Positions 25,678 through 58,700 of a DNA stretch of 64,000 nucleotides are shown here, in pieces. Positions within the stretch are counted from its first letter, which is position 1. Each line of letters opens with the position of its first letter. The notes beneath the pieces were generated by a model. That model searched no databases, was not told where the DNA came from, and worked only from the letters and a program-made list of their open reading frames with translations. The DNA comes from Melampsora larici-populina 98AG31 (lineage: Eukaryota > Basidiomycota > Pucciniomycetes > Pucciniales > Melampsoraceae), in NCBI RefSeq assembly GCF_000204055.1, contig NW_006768798.1, positions 202,250 through 266,249 on the forward strand. Reading direction: 5' to 3'. The position numbers and the translations under genes are program-made.

Positions 25678-27934
25678 ATGCGATCAACCTGTGTGGCGGC
25701 TTCATTGGCCGCCCTGTGTTGCTCGATCGCTCGAGCAGAAGAAGTTTCATCTACTGTGCTAGAGAAACCTAAATTCGCGGTATGCTTACTTACTCATTTG
25801 AGTGATCTATAGTTACTCATATCAACTCTCATCATTTGTAGCCTACTTCGATCAAGGCCCACTTTATTGAGCAGTTTACCAGTGATTGGTCATCTCGATG
25901 GAGTCCTTCAGAGGCTACAAAGGAGACAAGCACAGGAGGCGAAACTTTCAGTTATGGTACGCATCGCTTTATTTCTATCTGCTATCTCTCCTCATTTAGC
26001 TTTGTTTTAATTGGAATATTTCATTTGGTCTGAAACAGTGGGTAAATGGGAGGTGGAGGAAGCCACAGTCTATCCGGCTATCGAAGGCGACGAAGGACTT
26101 GTAGTGAAGAGCCCAGCAGCTCATCACGCCATCTCTGTTCCATTCACAAAATCATTGGATAATACCGACAAAACACTTGTAGTACAATATGAGGTTCGTT
26201 TATGTTTCACTCATCTACCATACGTTATGTCCTTGCTCAACAGGGCCTTGCATTGAATCGCTACACGACCATAGGTCAAACTTCAAAAAGGTCTTGAATG
26301 TGGAGGAGCCTACATTAAGTTGTTAAAAGAATCTCCCACTGGTATCCAAGCTCAAGGTCCGTTTTTCATTTTTCAAGCCTTTTGGCAATCACGATATATG
26401 CATGGCTGCGAAACTAAAACAATGTTGATAATTTTGGCCGACAGAATTCTCTGACAAGACCGAATATACGATCATGTTTGGACCCGATCGATGTGGATCA
26501 ACCAACAAGGTTCATTTCATCTTCCGTCACAAGAACCCAAAGACTGGCGAGTATGAAGAGAAGCATTTGAAATCGCCCCCGATGATCAAGAACGTCAAGA
26601 CCACTGCACTCTACACCCTTATTGTCAGACCTGATCAAACATTCAGCATCAAGATCAATGACGAGGAAGCTACCAAGGGAAGTCTTCTGGAAGACTTTAC
26701 ACCTGCTGTCAACCCTTCTAAGGAAATTGGTAAAGTTGCTTTTATCAAGGTCATCGATAATTATTTTCGTGGAATCTGACATGCCTATGATCTGTACTTA
26801 GATGATGCCAAAGATACGAAGCCCGCAGATTGGGTCGATGATGCCAAGATCGTTGACCCTGAAGCCAAGAAGCCAGAAGATTGGGACGAGGACGCACCAC
26901 GCGAGATTCCTGACGATGAAGCTGAAAAACCATTTGGCTGGCTCGATGATGAACCTCTGACCGTTCCTGATCCCGATGCCCAAAAGCCTGAGGAATGGGA
27001 CGATGAAGAGGATGGAGATTGGGTACCACCAAGCGTTCCTAACCCGAAATGTGAAGATGTACCTGGATGCGGTCAATGGGTCCGACCAATGAAGTCCAAC
27101 CCTGCCTACAAAGGAAAATGTAAGGTCAATGATCTATCGTATCGCAAGCGGATTCTGACGTGTGATTCGAATTCAGGGACTGCACCTCTTATTGACAACC
27201 CAGCCTACAAGGGTGTCTGGGCTCCTCGAAAGATTCCTAACCCAGACTACTTTGAGGATAACACTCCATCGAAGTTCGAACCGATCGCTGGAATTGGAAT
27301 CGAGTTGTGGACCATGCAAGAGAACATTCTATTTGATAACGTTCGTGAAAGTCGTACAGTGTTTGCGTTGATTCATTTTTCCTGATGTAGTCTTGTCCGT
27401 TTCTTAGATCTACATTGGTCACTCCGAAGAAGATGCCACCGCATTCGCCAAGGAAACATTCCACGTCAAATCAGCTATCGAGAAGAAACTTGAGGATGCT
27501 GAGAAGCCTGCAGATGATAAGGCTGACATCAACACTGATGATATCCCGGCCCTCATGGAGGACCCTATCCAATTTGCCAAAGGTCACACCAAGGCTTTCA
27601 TCAGTCTTGCACTTATTGATCCCTCCCGAGCGATCAAAGAGATGCCAATTGCCGCTTTGGCTATTGGTGGGGCCCTTGCTAGTATTCTCGGAACTCTATT
27701 ACTTCGTAAGCATCTTCTTTTGCACCTTCAATTCGAGGCTCTATATATCTGACTTTTTGGCAATTTTCAGTATTGACTGGTTCATCAACACAACAAGTCA
27801 AGAAAGTCAAGAAGACTTCAAGTAAGAAGACTGATGCAGCTAGCGCAGATGATAAGGGTGCAGCAGAAAAGGTAGCTGATGCTCCAATTGCAGGTGAAAA
27901 GAAAACAGATGGTGAAGTAAAGAAACGAAAGTAG
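25678..27934 (+). CDS. CNE1: Calnexin, ER membrane chaperone
   Basis: Nine exons join in phase: 25678-25779, 25842-25956, 26039-26193, 26275-26356, 26445-26729, 26802-27119, 27177-27340, 27408-27705 and 27771-27934, giving 560 residues. There is a signal peptide ([14 protein letters not shown]), the lectin domain ([33 protein letters not shown]), and the P-arm with motif-1 repeats ([24 protein letters not shown]) and motif-2 repeats ([26 protein letters not shown]). A single membrane helix follows ([19 protein letters not shown]), then a Lys-rich cytosolic tail ending KKRK, a dilysine ER-retrieval signal. Calnexin holds monoglucosylated glycoproteins for folding in the ER. The intron at 27120-27176 restores the Trp of the motif-2 GKW, which supports the model. 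Confidence 0.97.
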
Positions 27935-34323: not shown

Positions 34324-36264
34324 TTAATTTGTAACATATCCTAAACGATCAAAAGTAATTCAGAAACAAAGGAATCAATGGTCCATTTACAACCCAATTC
34401 AAGGAGATCAAAGAAAGAATACCTTTAGGATTTTGACTTTGCCAATTCCAAAGATCACGACACATGGTATCCAAATCACGCTAAACGCCCCCCCAAAAAC
34501 ATATCAAAAGGTCAGATTTCCAAAACCTAACCAAGAGTCATACCAAAGAAAGATTCAGGGAAAAATACTAACAGAAGCATCGAATCCAAGTTCTTTTTTA
34601 GCAAGTGAAGGATCAGCCGTAAGATCAGGTACATCACCAAGTCTTCTACCAATGATCTCATACTTATAATCAAATCCAGTAGCTTTTCTCATAGCTTCAA
34701 TCACTTGAACAAAATAAAATAGAAACAGATTAAACTGTAATTCCTAAAAAACAAGATAGATTCATGAAGGAATGAAATTTACTAACTTTCAAAAACACTT
34801 TGACCACGACCTTTACCCAAGTTGTAAGCTTTATATTTCCCACCACTTGTTCCGAAACCTGATTTGAAACCTGGACAAGGTGTTTCCCAAGTAGTTTCTT
34901 TTGATAATCCATCTAAGGCATTAATGTGACCACCAGCAAGATCCATGACTAGAACGCAAACAATCAATTCAATCAGATCCAAGGATTTCAAAAAACTTTA
35001 TAAATGATATAGAAACGAGATAAAAAAGGGAATCATACCATGAATATAATCACGTATACAAGCTCCATCTCTAGTAGGATAATCATTTCCATTGATTTTC
35101 AAATCATGAGGAATCTTACCAACGGCCATTTGAGCCAACAAAGGTAACAGATTCCCCGGTTTCCCAACCGGATCTTCACCAATCATACCAGAAGGATGTG
35201 CTCCAGCAGGATTAAAGTAACGTAAGGAGATCGATTTCCATTTGGTAGGTTGTGAATCACATAAATCTTTGATGATCAATTCGCTCATCATCTTTGTTCG
35301 TCCGTAAACTGATTCAGGTGTTAAGGGAGATGATTCGGGAATCGGGATCTCTGTTGGGGCTCCGTATACTGTGGCTGATGATGAGTAAACTAAATTATAA
35401 CATCCGTTTCGGTTCATGACCTGAAATCGATCGGGAAAACAAAAAGATGATTCAGTGATATAGAAAAAAGATCAAAACGAAACGGTTTGGAGAAACAATC
35501 AACTTACATCTAATAAATTAATAGTAGCCGTTATATTATTTTCATAATATTGAATAGGTTTCTCACCACTTTCACCAACAGCTTTATGAGCCGCAATATG
35601 AATGACACCCCAAATCTCTTCAGATTTAAATATGTTTTCAATATCTGATTTATTGGTGATATCTCCTTTATAAACTTTTACATTCGTATCTAATTTATCT
35701 TGATCTGATGAATTAGTTGGTAATTCATTTAAAGCGATTTTAGAAACTCTTTTAATGGCTTCTGGAAATGAATTGTGAAAGCTTTTTTGTTGTTGTTTTT
35801 GTTTTGGTAATGAAAGAAAGGAATTGAATTAGACGTTCGAATTAGAAATCGTACAATTTGGAAAATCAATCAGTTTGATTAGGAAGTTTCTTATGTTCTA
35901 GAAAGATTTCTTAGTATGATAAGTTAAACTTACTTATCGATAGTGACAACTTTATATTTTCTAGTTAATAAACAACATAAGACCACATGTGATCCAATAT
36001 AACCAGCTCCACCAGTCTGAAACGTTTTGATCGGGAAAAAGGACAGAACATCAGTTTTACCAATTCGATCGAGACTAAAGAAAAGCTTCTTAAAACTGAT
36101 ATCGATCATCCTGAAGTGATTTGACTTACAACTGTCAAGTTTTGTCATTCAACATGTCACAAGAAATAGATCAGTCAGTTCATGATAGTGATCGATAGAT
36201 TGTATTGAGTTTCTCTCAAGTTTGATTAGATAAACTCACCAAGGATAGTTTTCTTTTCTGGCAT
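34324..36264 (-). CDS. GAL10: UDP-glucose (galactose) 4-epimerase
   Basis: Nine exons join in phase: 36264-36240, 36131-36130 (2 nt), 36016-35934, 35781-35508, 35420-35039, 34948-34787, 34703-34573, 34480-34423 and 34340-34324, giving 377 residues, typical of a single-domain epimerase. The N terminus becomes [14 protein letters not shown], the NAD-binding Rossmann motif. Further motifs are [34 protein letters not shown] (catalytic Ser), SVYGRTK (catalytic Y-X3-K), [13 protein letters not shown] and [13 protein letters not shown]. It interconverts UDP-glucose and UDP-galactose in the Leloir pathway. There is no C-terminal mutarotase domain, unlike the yeast Gal10 fusion. The 2-nt exon supplies the TT of the Val codon in ILVTGG. 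The 17-nt last exon encodes the final residues. Confidence 0.95.
36130..36131 (-). other. Predicted 2-nt micro-exon of the epimerase gene
   Basis: On the minus strand the sequence reads ...AACTTGACAG|TT|GTAAGTCAAA.... Exon 1 ends ATC-CTT-G and exon 3 begins ACT-GGT-GGA. Only two extra bases restore both frame and the conserved valine ([13 protein letters not shown]). No other splice choice I tried in the interval 36016-36264 gives this. Confidence 0.7.
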
Positions 36265-38951: not shown

Positions 38952-39041
38952 GCCCGGCTAGCTCAGTTGGTAGAGCATTCGACTCTTACAAGGGTTCTTC
39001 ATTGCATCGAATTGTCGTGGGTTCGAGCCCCACGTTGGGCG
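38952..39041 (+). tRNA. tRNA-Lys (CTT) with 17-nt intron
   Basis: The acceptor stem GCCCGGC pairs with GTTGGGC (two G-T pairs). The D arm GCTCAGTTGGTAGAGC and the T arm GTGGG-TTCGAGC-CCCAC are canonical. The anticodon loop CTCTTA(A) with CTT at 38985-38987 is closed by TTCGA/TCGAA. A 17-nt intron (38989-39005) sits after the base 3' of the anticodon, the standard position for nuclear tRNA introns. Mature length is 73 nt including the discriminator G; CCA is not encoded. Upstream AT-rich DNA and the CTTTTG just downstream fit Pol III transcription. Confidence 0.95.
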
Positions 39042-39970
39042 CTTCCTTTTGCACATGCTCAAACCCACGACAACTCGTTTTTGGCCCAGGCATAATTGAT
39101 TTTTGCCACAAATAAATAAATACAATTTTGGTCATTGAGATCATTTGAATAAAGCTGATCCTGTTAGATTTTTTTGCTTGCAAATTCTTATTTCTTGCAG
39201 AATATGTAGGAATCAAGGGTGGTGAGCTATGTGCAATTGTGAATGTTATAGTGTATATATCAAAGAGACATGATTTTGAACAACCTTTTTCCAGAGAGAA
39301 ATTTCTGGACTGTTCTTGTACTGATAATTGCAACCTGAGACTTCAGCTTGGATCGAATTTTTCAGAAAGACCCCTGAATATAGTGAGTTCAACTTGAGGG
39401 GTTTGATTACCATGGCCTCAGAGTGAGGGTAAGAAGATGGAGAGGTAGCAAAAATACAACAAAACAAGCCACATTGTGATCAATCCTGTTTGCAGGCCAA
39501 ATTTTATTGTGTTTCTGTGAAAAAGGTGGTATACATTACAATCCTATGTCACATCATCCTGATCACCCATCAAGTACCACTTCCCTCACTATGTAGTACC
39601 ACACAGAAGACCTGTGACATGAGCCATATATAAGGTTGTTTGTATTATGCTTGTACTAAATGTTGCACTCAGTTAGAGGTTAACTCATGGATGGCCTGTG
39701 CATCCTCTACAATTCAAATACAAATACAAGAGGACCTTTCACATACCTTGCATACCATCCCCACCAAGGCTCCGCACTCAAATCAAGGCACAAAAAGGGA
39801 GTGTACAGGGAATATTGTTGACTCGTATTTCAATTCCATGTGTATGAAAATCTAAACAAAAAGTTTCATATGCTCTAAGAGCTGACTAAGAAACTTCAGA
39901 TGGTTATAAAAGGAAGATAAAAGACTCCAATCTTTAATTCTACATGGATTTAAAAAGGAAACAAAACAAC

Positions 39971-48512: not shown

Positions 48513-51500
48513 TTAATAAGGATTCCTAGGAGGTTGGTTTGGATAGGGAGCTTGATTCATAGGAGGTAGATAGTGTTCATGTGGTCGTCCACCCTGTGGC
48601 GGTGGTGGTGGTGGTACTCCTTGCCATCCTGGTTGAGGAGCGTATGGAGCTCCATGAGGCGGTGGATAATGTGAAGGACTCGTAGAAGGGTAAGCTGGAT
48701 GTTGAGATGATGGTGGGGCTGGTGATGGACGCTGTGACGTGTGTTGTGGATGAATGGGGCTTTGATTGGGCGGCCAAGGGTAGGATTGGGAATGTTGAGG
48801 TGGTGGAGGTTGATAAGGTTGCGGCGGTGGGGGTGAAGGATAGTATTGAGGTTGATCATTGAGGCGATGTGAGGGTGGCAGATGTGGTGGATAGGCATTC
48901 GTAAGGTTGCCAGTAGATTGATAGGAGATGGGTGGGGGCGGAGGTGGTAGTGCTTGATTGGGAGCAGAAGGGGCAGGGTAATTGCTCATAGGTTGGCGAT
49001 AAGACGCGGGGTTGTTGTATGGGTATTGTGGTTCGGAAGATGGGGTTGGATGAGTCTGGCCGAGGGAACCTAGTCCTGCGTAGGGATCGGAGGGTGGAGG
49101 AGGAGGATATTGTGGGACAGGAAGTGGGGTGCTAGCTTGCCTAGCCTGTTGAGGATAACCCGATGGTACCGGTCCGGTGTTTTGAGAAGTCTGCCATCCT
49201 GGGGGTGGAGGTGGAAGAGGCGGTGGGTAGGCTTTAGAATTGTTTAGATGCATCCCAGACACCCGTTGTTCCAATCCATGTAAGTCTGTCGAAGTGCTAG
49301 GAGTTGAAGGCTTTGAGTACCGTTCTTTCGCAGCTTCAGCTTTAGCTGCCATCTGAAGTCGTTCTGCGTTACGGTTGTTCGTGTATGTAGAAACTTGTCT
49401 TTGCATCTCGGAGACCGCCTCTGAGATTTCACGATAAAATTGACTACCTTTCGAAAGACCACTTCGAATCTCTTCATGATTTTCATAAGCTCTTTGAAGT
49501 CGAGCAAGAAGTTGAGTACGATGTTTTGATGCATTAGTCCAATTATCTTGAATTGCTTTGCCACGTTTCCCTTCAACAAGTGCTTTATATTGTGCTACAA
49601 CTTCTTGAATCGTGCTAGTTTGAATATGTAAAGTAGCACTGATCCGACCAGAATGAGCTCGGAACTTTTCAAGTTCGGCAGAAAATAATGCTGGTTCGAC
49701 GTTTTGAACTTTTCGGTTGAGGATCAAGAGTTGTGAAATGTCGTCGGCTTGGATGCGTTCCTTTAAATCGTTTAATACTCCTTGTCGTTCCTTCTTGATT
49801 GCTTGGAGACGATTGAGATTGTCTTGGATAGAGGTCACAAGATTCTTGACTTGAATCAGCTCAGCTTCATCATCTGGAGTATCGACCAAGTCGAGTAGAC
49901 TGGGAGCCTTAGTCGAGTCATGTTGAGAAGAACCTTGGGCAAATAAAGCGCGGATGGACTCCCCCGATCGATCAGCGAGCATCTGAATGTCGGCTTTGGA
50001 CATCGCCCACAAGCCTTCAACTTGGCCATCAGATTGCTTGGCCATCTCAAGCGTTTGTCGGTGAGATTTGATATCTTGTCTCCAAGTCTTCGTGAAATTC
50101 AGAGCGGGTGGTTGATCCCAAAGATGATCGTACCGTACTCGCATCTGTTCACAATCTCGCGCTTCTGTATCTAGAGTGCGCTCAATGTCCTCAAGGTCTC
50201 GATGGGTTTTATTCCGTAGGGCGATCATGTCGCTACACATCTGATCAATCGTTTTACCCGAGTTAGCTTGCTGTATACTATCAGCCCATGCAAGGACTTG
50301 CTCTGGCGGCTCCGAAAGTTCTTTCAATCGAGCCGAATCACCGTTATTTTGAACCAGGTCGTTAAATTTATCTAAACTTGCCGGAAGTCCCAAAAACTCG
50401 AGTGTGGTGGTGAGTTCGGTATCTGCCAGGTCACACTTTTCACCATCCGTACGGACTAGTTTTGCTTTCTCTTCACTATATAAACTCGAGCTTTGATGTA
50501 CACTGAGAGGGACGAGTCGAATAAAGATATCTTGTCCAACCACCTTTTGGACCTCTGGTGCGCCATAAACCTCTTGAATCGGTATGGGTTCACCAACACT
50601 ACTTTTTTCGATCAGAGTAAGAGCAGCTTCAGAGGGTTGCGCTTCGTGATAGATCAGGTCATTGTCTCGTTGCTCAGAAGTTCTGGCTTCTGTGCAAAGC
50701 GTCAAGTGAGTTTTGGTGATCTCCAATAGAGAGACGGCAGCATCGGATGGTAAGGTGACTGATCCAGAGTTTGTGAAGGCGGCTGAGAATGAGTTTGCGA
50801 AACGATTGGCTTCTTTAGCAGCCGTCTCGGCGATTTGTAATCGGGTGAGAGCCTCGCCATGTTTGGATGCTGCAGAGTCGGCCAAAGATCGTTGATATTG
50901 TGCCAGTGATGAAAAATACTTGTGCTTGCACTATATACGTTCGAAAGGATCATGTTAGGAGCCTTGGAGTCTATTTTGAGGTGAAGATAAATATGACTGG
51001 CCTGAACCAACCACATCCAGCTTCGCTCAAAGATGCCTTTGGTGACCAAATCCTTTACATCTTCGAGAATACTACCATAGAGAAATGCCGCCTGAGTGCT
51101 AACCCTTGCCCTCAGTCCGAATGGCTTTTTCTCCTTTTCTTCCGTCATACGCTCTACAAAAACTTCCGTGGCTTGAGCAATCATTAATTGAACCAGCACT
51201 TTGACAACCTCACGACTGAGATCCGTGGAAGGGGCATGGAGGAAGTTGTCATTGATGTATGTAAACATTCCAGCTGCACATCTGAAGTTGTGAAATGCAC
51301 GTCGGATACCCTCAGTAGAAGTACGGTTCTGTTGTGCAGCGAGTGAAGATAGTGTAGCAGCGATGTTGAAGATCACAGATGCCTTTTCATATGCCAAAGA
51401 TAGTTGTGAGATTTCTTTACCCGTGAATGCATCTTTCCTGAAGAGAGTCAGACCTGATGATAAGTTTGAAGTTGATTGATACAGAAAGTTATGATTACCC

Positions 51501-51800
51501 ACCAAGGAAAAGGCACTCTCACTTCCGGAAATCGTAATTCGAGTAACTCTAGTTGACCAAAGTATTTGTAAAGTAAATCCCTCCCTACTCAACCCAAGAT
51601 CAGATACATGCGACAACCCAAAATGAAGAGTATTTAGTATGTGAATGAAAGGATGCGAGACAAGACTTCGAACCTGTGACGTCACTTCCAGCACTACCCC
51701 TCAAAGCATCTTGTCGACATCGATCCAATGATAAGATTTCTTCTTTATAAGTATCAGGAGATTCTTGATAAGTTTGAGTGATAGTTTGTCGAATGGATTG
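48513..51800 (-). CDS. BRO1: BRO1, ESCRT-III-associated vacuolar sorting protein (5' end in gap)
   Basis: Visible exons are 51800-51674, 51584-51503, 51437-51002 and 50930-48513 (stop), together about 1,020 codons. The N terminus, with the start, lies in the run of Ns. Motifs of the BRO1 domain are [72 protein letters not shown] and [21 protein letters not shown] long coiled-coil V domain follows, then about 230 residues of Pro/Gln/Tyr-rich tail. This matches fungal Bro1 rather than Rim20, by the [12 protein letters not shown] and [10 protein letters not shown] blocks. Bro1 binds Snf7, recruits the ubiquitin hydrolase Doa4 and acts in multivesicular-body sorting on endosomes. The intron at 50931-51001 starts GC or uses a GT six bases upstream. 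Confidence 0.93.
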
Positions 51801-55759: not shown

Positions 55760-58700
55760 CTACTTTAGAAGTCTGCAAACTTCACTCAACACGCAAATCA
55801 AACTGTAGCACAGTGGAAAACAGTCTTGGTGTTGGTACTGTACGGTCAAGCTGTAAAACCTCACTGTAACCGTAGTGGAGTCAATATAATTATCTGGTCA
55901 ATCCTGCACTACGGTGAGGTCAACCTGTAGTGCACCAGACCGTAGTCACTGCAGCAACCACAGTCTACGGTGACTACAATCAAAAAATTAAAGAAGTCGC
56001 AGGTTTGAATTAAATTAATTGTAGAGTAAAAAGAAAGACAAACTGTATTGAAATAGGTGTAATTATAAACTAAATTGATAGGAAAAAAGAAGCAAAACAT
56101 GTTGATGAGAGCAACAAACATTAAAATTATATGAATCATTAAATCAATGAAGGAAACAGAAGAGGGAAAAGGAAACATGCAGAATGATTCAAATCTCCTT
56201 GCTCTTCTTTTTTCCCTCACACAATTCATGTTCTAATAAATAAGTCACTGCTTCCTGAAACTCACCAGAAGGAACTGCTTTGTTCTTTAGCCATTCTCAG
56301 CAAGCAACAGACTGTGAAGCTATTTAAGGCTTGATGGAGCCTCTACTTGAAACTGTGATGTCAGCTGCCGATGAGAAGGTATGCTCAACCGCGCACAAGG
56401 TACCTGGTAAAGATAAGTAATCTCAAGCCATGGTGGCTAAGATTGGGAAACTATTTTCATTACTCTACATCAACAAATGTAATATCAGTAAAGAGCATAG
56501 GAGAAAGTTAAGGCAAAACATCCACTAACTGTCCACCAGTTAAGCGCACTGGTTCCTTTGCCAATTGGATGGGCACCCTCAAGGTAACATTTCAGTTCCA
56601 CCTGGCCATCCTGAACAGTTTCAGTCGCCGGCGCAGCTGGAAACAAGTTATCCTCCTTGTCCTCACTCTCAGGTTGATTTGTTGAGATGATTTCAACTGA
56701 AGGTGCACGTGGTTCTGGAAAGTTTTCAGAATACTGAGAGAATATTGAGTCCAGAGAGATCTTTGCCTGAATAGCCACATTGGGATAGAACTTGTCGATA
56801 TAATTCAATCTGTGTTGAGGTTTAAGGATTTTTGCCATCTGGACAGCCTCCGTTTTTGCCACCTCATTTGTGTACCGTTTGATATACTTGACCATTGTGG
56901 TGATCATTGTGTCCAGGCTGGGATAGGCACTGCTTGGCTGTAGTACCCGCAATTCAGACTGTACCTTGCAAAATTGGACAAGACTTTGCAACCCAAAGCA
57001 AAGTCACCTTCCATTTGTTTAGTAGCACGCTCAAATACCTGGGTCAAACATTCTTCAATTGAAAAAGTTCTATCAACAAAAAGAGATACAAAACATAAAA
57101 GTACACACCTCAAGCACTTTGTTCACGGATTGCACTGCATCCCATTCTTCCTCCAAGATACTTGAACCTTGGAAGAAACAATTAGTCTTTGAGTCTGTGT
57201 GCGGCATTCCATTGATAATATTCAAATACAACAAACGTCAGAGCTATACACACCAAACAATCATTAAGTGAAGTCTTACCTCATGTCCAGCCGCCGCACG
57301 CCTTTGGCTATTGGCCTTTGCATTCCACCTTACTCCCCATCCATGGATGATGCTTTTAAGCCCTTGTTTTTTTGCATGTGTATTGAACCATTTCGGGCCC
57401 AAGGAATTCAAACAGATCAAAGATATGACCTTATCACACTAGAGTGAATTTGATGAAGTAAGCTGCTAGCACACCAAGATTGAAGACCTTATTGACATAC
57501 TGACCTTTAATAAAGCACACTTCACTAGCTCGGTTGTGTCACTTGGGTCACCATCTTCACAATCAATATTGTTAGATGTTGGTACTAAACCAGCATCATC
57601 TTCATCAGAAGAATCAGACAACTGAACTTCAACGTCATCTTCACCGGTATTGAGCACCAAGGTGGGTATTGGAATGGTTGCCCCTGGTCAAGTTGTTGGT
57701 TTTATGCGACCCACTGAGATGTTCATTGTCTTGAGACCGTGCTTGACAAGCAGTGCAAGTTTATGACAATAGCATCTAACATAATTTGAGGAAGAATCAC
57801 AATAGACTGAATTGTCCAAGTTCTTGAACATCTTCTCCAGTTCATCAGCTATTGTTCTGTTCTTGGCACTTGAGTCCGTAGTCCGTGCCAATACCTATTG
57901 GACAATGGTCAGAATTTGATGATAGATAGAAGTTATAAGATTTGAACGTACTTTCTTGTGAAGTCCATGTTTTATCAGGAACTTCCCAACAGGCCTGGCG
58001 AGCAGCACACCACAGTGGTGCCACGTTACCAACTTCAGAGTTAGATGGCTGGATTGAAACTTTGACTTAGAATCGATCCATGTTGCTGTAACACTGATCA
58101 AAGCTAAACAGTTTCCCTTTGTGGTCCATCCATCGTGGATCAGGCATATCTTGCTTTGGTTATTCTGTGTTGATCAAATCAAAACCATGATTAGTTTTTT
58201 TGTTCCAAAGAAAAACAAAATATGACTAACTTTGGTCTTTCTCAATAGCAGATCATACATTCAGAAATATAAATCCTTTGCAGTCATGGTGGCCCAAGTT
58301 GAGCTCCTGATATTAGCAGAAGGTGAGTGAGGTGAAATGCTGCTTGGAGGGTCGGATCTTGAAATCGGACCCATGGCAGGGCATGACACAAGACCCAGAT
58401 GCCCAACAGCACATTCAGGATATCAACACTGAATGGTGGTTGGTTCATGAAAGATTTCATCAATTCCGCTGATGAATTTGTGGCTGATGACTTTGTTGCA
58501 GCCTTGCAGGCCTTCTGGCGCTCTTGATAGGTTGGTGGGAGTCCATGATCTTTCTGTTTCATTGCATTAGCACAGCCCTCACAAGGACCTCAATTCTTCC
58601 CGCCGTCTTGATGGCCATAGAGGTTGCTGGTTGCGTCTATACAGTGTGTGAAGGTCTACGTACACCATTTACATTTGTATCCACGTAGAACTTCAACAGG

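Follow-up and report, generated by a model that had tools for sequence, protein, structure and literature searches.

A predicted two-nucleotide exon in the UDP-glucose 4-epimerase gene of the rust fungus Melampsora larici-populina

Analysis of a 64,000-nucleotide stretch of DNA from Melampsora larici-populina 98AG31 (hereafter the window) indicates that the UDP-glucose 4-epimerase (GALE) gene on its minus strand (36264..34324) very probably contains a coding exon of only two nucleotides, TT, which would complete the codon for Val9. The explanation as a whole, namely a GALE gene with its ninth codon split over a 2-nt exon, flanking introns removed in turn and a strong donor behind the micro-exon, is one that we hold with high confidence. 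The nine exons add up to 1134 nt and encode 377 amino acids plus a stop within a start-to-stop genomic span of 1941 nt, and all introns are of the GT-AG type, with lengths of 82-152 nt (Table 1). The coordinates, the reading frame and the totals, down to the placing of TT, are those already proposed in a first-pass annotation.

Table 1. Exons of the epimerase gene, the two introns next to the micro-exon, and predicted splicing signals (positions in the window unless a locus is named).
Feature	Position	Strand	Description
Exon 1	36240..36264	-	25 nt, ATG to CTT G; ends ATC CTT G, then gtgagt; product MPEKKTIL plus first base of Val9
Intron 1	36132..36239	-	108 nt, phase 1, gtgagt...gacag
Candidate branch site CTGAC, intron 1	36174..36178	-	A with 43 nt after it; next AG is the micro-exon acceptor; from pattern only
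Exon 2 (predicted micro-exon TT)	36130..36131	-	2 nt, second and third base of Val9; ttgacag/TT/gtaagt
Micro-exon donor GTAAGT	36124..36129	-	complementary at 6/6 positions to the U1 candidates' 5' end (AUACUUACCU); pairing by eye
Intron 2	36017..36129	-	113 nt, phase 0, gtaagt...tttcag
Candidate branch site CTGAT, intron 2	36050..36054	-	A with 34 nt after it; next AG is the exon 3 acceptor; from pattern only
Exon 3	35934..36016	-	83 nt; tttcag, then ACT GGT
Exon 4	35508..35781	-	274 nt
Exon 5	35039..35420	-	382 nt
Exon 6	34787..34948	-	162 nt
Exon 7	34573..34703	-	131 nt
Exon 8	34423..34480	-	58 nt
Exon 9	34324..34340	-	17 nt, ends GYVTN stop
U1 snRNA candidates	L010 1501-1678; L011 1501-1678 and 2102-2279		two close together, in opposite orientation

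Judged by its sequence, the gene product is an ordinary UDP-glucose 4-epimerase. The 377-aa protein matches the curated galE equivalog TIGR01179 with 373.7 bits against a cut-off of 262.3, solved GALE chains align with it through the first-strand region that holds Val9, and the alignment with relatives places in it both the nucleotide-binding loop and the YxxxK catalytic motif (as YGRTK), presumably with the roles that these names imply. A DNA search of the assembly for a second haplotype or paralogue returned the epimerase gene itself as the sole match. The one match between the gene and a plasmid collection covered 58 bp of exon 5 and came from a Fusobacterium record, and none of 5 pattern matches in viral contigs was confirmed. 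The 17-nt last exon is absent from P0001, the deposited model of M. larici-populina, and from M. americana model P0004, both of which end differently after NPKG.

Exon 1 stops after the first base of a codon, exon 3 begins at a codon border, and the length missing between them is thus 2 (mod 3). In the 223 bases separating these exons, the arrangement AG/NN/GT (slashes marking exon borders) occurs once, as CAG/TT/GTAAGT, so placed that canonical AG and GT flank TT; CAG/NN/GTAAGT is found once per strand within the 64-kb window. Without changing the donor of exon 1 or the acceptor of exon 3, and requiring GT-AG borders, introns of at least 30 nt and an in-frame, stop-free product, we enumerated four internal exons, which scored 10.3 (TT), 9.0 (35 nt), 3.7 (14 nt) and 3.4 (20 nt). 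Five one-intron models were enumerated as well, one deleting VTGG and four translating intron sequence. Among these canonical models, four with an internal exon and five with one intron, TT alone restores ILVTGG without loss or insertion of a residue; the enumeration covered models with one extra exon between unchanged outer sites and models with one intron. Within 1500 nt upstream, a search for an ATG-started single exon that ends in Val or Ile and could be joined in frame straight to exon 3 yielded 0 candidates. The 2-nt exon put forward in the first-pass annotation is thus supported as the sole canonical enumerated model predicted to give an intact enzyme.

Splice sites were scored with matrices built from just the remaining splice sites of the epimerase gene (seven donors, seven acceptors). 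The donor of the micro-exon (8.8) equals the best donor of the gene, and its acceptor is weak (1.5 bits vs 2.9 to 11.1 for the seven other acceptors), with no clear pyrimidine tract. Dinucleotide shuffling of the region, repeated 5000 times, gave some AG/TN/GT in 486 cases, one scoring at least as high as the observed site in 10, and CAG/TN/GTAAGT in 0. When any exon of 2-59 nt in the right length class was allowed, 514 of the 5000 shuffles reached the observed score; the rarity therefore belongs to the exact length, strength and codon fit, and cryptic exons in general are not rare. A structural RNA bridging exon 1 to exon 3 was also considered and rejected, the folding z being 0.88 and 165 of 200 shuffles folding at least as well.

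The residue that TT would complete is strongly conserved. A homologue search scored 7998 proteins. Residues were counted in the best 120 of these, of which 114 carry Val or Ile at the place of Val9: a pattern search picked up 89 with Val and 21 with Ile, and inspection by eye added 4 with Val from the seven proteins to which the pattern had not matched. This bears out the conserved valine invoked in the first-pass annotation. The six exceptions, five rust or rust-like proteins and one from Mixia, are each broken at the place of Val9: P0001 has Gly, P0007 has Trp in a foreign frame, P0009 lacks VTGGA, P0010 starts downstream, P0011 is garbled and P0014 has Arg. Rust or rust-like proteins make up 11 of the best 120 (P0001-P0011, with P0002, P0008 and P0010 placed by similarity of 83-97%), and breakage at this place affects 5/11 of them compared with 1/109 of the others (Fisher p 1.4e-5, the rows not being independent by descent). 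Fifteen of 20 aligned relatives read through the Val9 place without insertion; P0007, P0009, P0010, P0011 and P0014 are broken or shortened there.

Val9 lies where the first strand of the NAD-binding fold ends; it would be assembled from the G of exon 1 and the TT of exon 2, with ACT opening exon 3. The two flanking introns, whose lengths of 108 and 113 nt favour intron definition, are most likely recognised each on its own in this way and most likely removed in turn rather than together, since simultaneous binding of U1 to GTAAGT and of the 3' splice-site machinery to the AG two bases before it is hard to envisage. The strong GTAAGT donor, a full match to U1, would compensate for the lack of an exon body. 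In both introns, the AG used would be the first one after a CTGAY branch candidate. The U1 snRNA candidates of this genome reach 43.2 bits vs the Rfam cut-off of 69.5, yet they keep the exact 5' end. Skipping of the micro-exon shifts translation into a frame with a stop after 26 codons, so that inclusion would be needed for a working enzyme, and skipped mRNA would be expected to decay. The splicing itself, its order, the branch sites and the decay of skipped mRNA are all inferred from the sequence.

The closest relative of the protein is the deposited M. larici-populina protein P0001, which is identical to ours over residues 1-372 except for V9G. Scanning of the possible joins near the two borders showed that Gly9 can be obtained only via a GA-AG or TG-CA intron, and this public model of the epimerase gene therefore very probably carries a false residue. 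The alternative, that one such non-canonical intron does join exon 1 to exon 3 as P0001 implies, would account for Gly9 in a protein otherwise identical to ours over residues 1-372, but we hold it to be very improbable: GA-AG and TG-CA are both non-standard intron types, Gly at position 9 occurs in no other of the best 120 homologues, the sister sequence P0002 has Val, and P0001 is a poor model whose C-terminus also departs from those of relatives. Such a join would be incompatible with a cDNA of sequence CTTGTTACT. Still less probable is a start of translation in the intron region (ATG 36148 or 36109), from which an unspliced first exon would run into exon 3; an open frame does exist, but this start loses the first beta strand seen in 15 of the 20 aligned relatives and does not account for exon 1 and the conserved KKTIL that it encodes. 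The least probable of the alternatives is replacement of TT by one of the longer exons (35, 20 or 14 nt, all within intron 2). All three have canonical sites and are in frame, the 35-nt exon scoring 9.0 vs 10.3, but each would insert residues between Val and the TGGAGYIG loop, where the same 15 of 20 relatives have no insertion.

A further possibility, which we consider rather unlikely and which is compatible with the 2-nt exon completing Val9, is that the micro-exon is real but often skipped, the level of GALE being set by the resulting premature stops. The early stop on skipping and the weak acceptor both speak for this, and P0010 may derive from skipped mRNAs; against it counts that a housekeeping enzyme would usually need steady inclusion.

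Among the other rust proteins, ILVTGG is present in M. americana models P0003 and P0004 and in Cronartium model P0005. P. coronata P0006 has LVTGG, and is counted among the 114, with a preceding N-terminus unlike exon 1. In P. striiformis P0009, exon 1 is in frame and is followed by a jump from TIL to GYIGSH. P0007 (P. striiformis) and P0011 (Austropuccinia) contain peptides that fit M-x(2-3)-[KR][KR]-T-I-L in another frame, that is, exon 1 out of frame, and in P0007 this peptide directly adjoins TGGAGYIG, as if exon 1 had been joined to exon 3 without the micro-exon. These two were the only matches when seven models were read in shifted frames, with none in P0001, P0006, P0009, P0010 or P0014 (exon 1 being already in frame in P0001 and P0009); the control, on the other 118 proteins, gave 41 matches in 89,182 position-shift pairs, and shuffled N-termini matched in 5/1000 cases for P0007 and 20/1000 for P0011. 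The failure of P0007, P0009 and P0011 suggests the same gap in Pucciniaceae, the family of P. striiformis, and in Sphaerophragmiaceae. The expectation that gene predictors miss such an exon thus holds for these models, several deposited rust models failing at the Val9 place.

Two further searches, one with our N-terminus (best 120 of 228 matches, P0009 not among them) and one with the P. striiformis N-terminus (12 matches from 24 candidates), brought up within these matches neither another named rust protein nor a Puccinia protein whose N-terminus is intact. It is possible, although we regard it as doubtful, that the 2-nt exon is rust-wide, predates the split of Melampsoraceae, Pucciniaceae and Sphaerophragmiaceae, has long been kept in a core sugar-nucleotide enzyme and is misannotated in many rusts, with the weak acceptor making inclusion a control point and the skipped mRNA decaying. 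Outside the rusts, the Mixia osmundae model P0014 is broken just before TGGAGYIG, with Arg for Val; from this model, an intron in the Val9 codon may be older than the rusts.

Transcript-like sequences provide a view of the mature codon. P0002 (source label 'lgn') comprises four sequences in two contigs, the longest of 1745 nt, and encodes the full 377-aa protein, which is 97% identical to ours (10 differences) and reads ILVTGG. Given the 1941-nt span of the gene and introns of 82-152 nt, an unspliced gene would hardly fit on such a contig. Another 'lgn' cluster, P0024, encodes a full 381-aa protein on contigs of at most 1260 nt, leaving almost no room for introns, and the 'lgn' source therefore seems to hold spliced RNA. 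P0002 is from a sister Melampsora species and shows the mature Val codon, not the exon. P0010, made up of ten Puccinia-like 'lgn' sequences, lacks everything before the counterpart of residue 33, as if its N-terminus were out of frame; this late start might be due to skipping, to intron retention or to poor assembly.

Exons of this size have precedents in the accessible text of published work. The first-pass annotation placed the micro-exon at the limit of what the spliceosome is known to define, a fair description, but one that does not put it beyond precedent, as 1-nt exons with RNA evidence are reported from Arabidopsis (PMC4674806) and Fusarium (PMC12940212). The closest parallel is the RNA-supported 1-nt exon of Fusarium CYP621A, described in 2026 as the first in a fungal gene and located at the same site in many orthologues (PMC12940212). 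Like the epimerase exon, it is fungal, completes one codon, was found from a frame gap in a conserved motif and poses an annotation problem; it differs in being 1 nt long, in belonging to an ascomycete P450 of unknown function and in being seen in RNA reads (PMC12940212), whereas the epimerase exon is of 2 nt, lies in a primary-metabolism enzyme of a rust and is predicted from sequence. Single-nucleotide exons with RNA support have also been described in Arabidopsis APC11 (PMC4674806) and plant VPS55 (PMC8831610). These share with our case an ultra-short exon between two introns, without which the annotated N-termini are wrong, and VPS55 also shares a conserved donor, GTRAGT (PMC8831610); unlike the exon predicted here, those of the plant genes were confirmed by RT-PCR and RNA-seq (PMC4674806, PMC8831610). 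For the Arabidopsis exon, removal of the introns one after another has been argued, with a 9-nt potato exon as precedent (PMC4674806).

Exons of 2-5 bp, and thus of the same size class in other lineages, are known from Arabidopsis, Drosophila and human (Volfovsky et al. 2003, as cited in PMC12940212). That basidiomycetes also tolerate very small exons is illustrated by the bglA genes of two basidiomycete yeasts, with smallest exons of 5 and 6 bp (PMC9142197), and by a 6-bp exon in Phanerochaete P450 genes (PMC1184071), although these are larger, not from rusts and in different genes. The micro-exon of Trichoderma Xlr2 is likewise fungal and required for the full protein, but it belongs to a transcription factor and its inclusion varies with glucose (PMC11121469). 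Recursive splicing through RS-exons resembles the route proposed here in that the introns on either side of a small exon are taken out step by step (PMC6224609). In the epimerase gene, two bases lie between AG and GT, so that the zero-length AG/GT ratchet is missing; the introns are short, and the two bases would be coding and required. Searches of open-access text found no paper on micro-exons in Melampsora, Puccinia or rust fungi, subscription papers and preprints being mostly outside this text, and those for 2-nt exons and for UDP-glucose 4-epimerase each returned one unrelated paper (the latter on schistosomes).

If confirmed, the epimerase exon would, as far as open-access text goes, be the first exon of 2 nt on record from fungi and the smallest one known from basidiomycetes, and it would sit in a core metabolic gene. 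It would offer a simple test case for how the spliceosome handles splice sites two bases apart. For public rust proteomes, the consequences at the NAD-binding strand would be a false residue in M. larici-populina (V9G) and, elsewhere, N-termini with the appearance of a frame shift or a truncation. More such exons could be uncovered by looking systematically for phase gaps.

Several other features were observed in the window. The sequence at 38952-39042 on the plus strand is annotated by ARAGORN as a tRNA-Cys gene that has an intron and the anticodon ACA. On inspection by eye, its loop CTCTTA points rather to a tRNA-Lys(CUU) with a differently placed intron, so that the ACA call is doubtful. 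A weak hAT-like transposase match at 56488-57003 on the minus strand scores 22.4 bits, under the family cut-off of 27. A calreticulin-family exon lies at 26780-27382 on the plus strand (Pfam, 236 bits), and a BRO1/ALIX-type gene with BRO1 and ALIX V domains occupies 48513-51700 on the minus strand, extending over two overlapping reading frames that are probably split by an intron.
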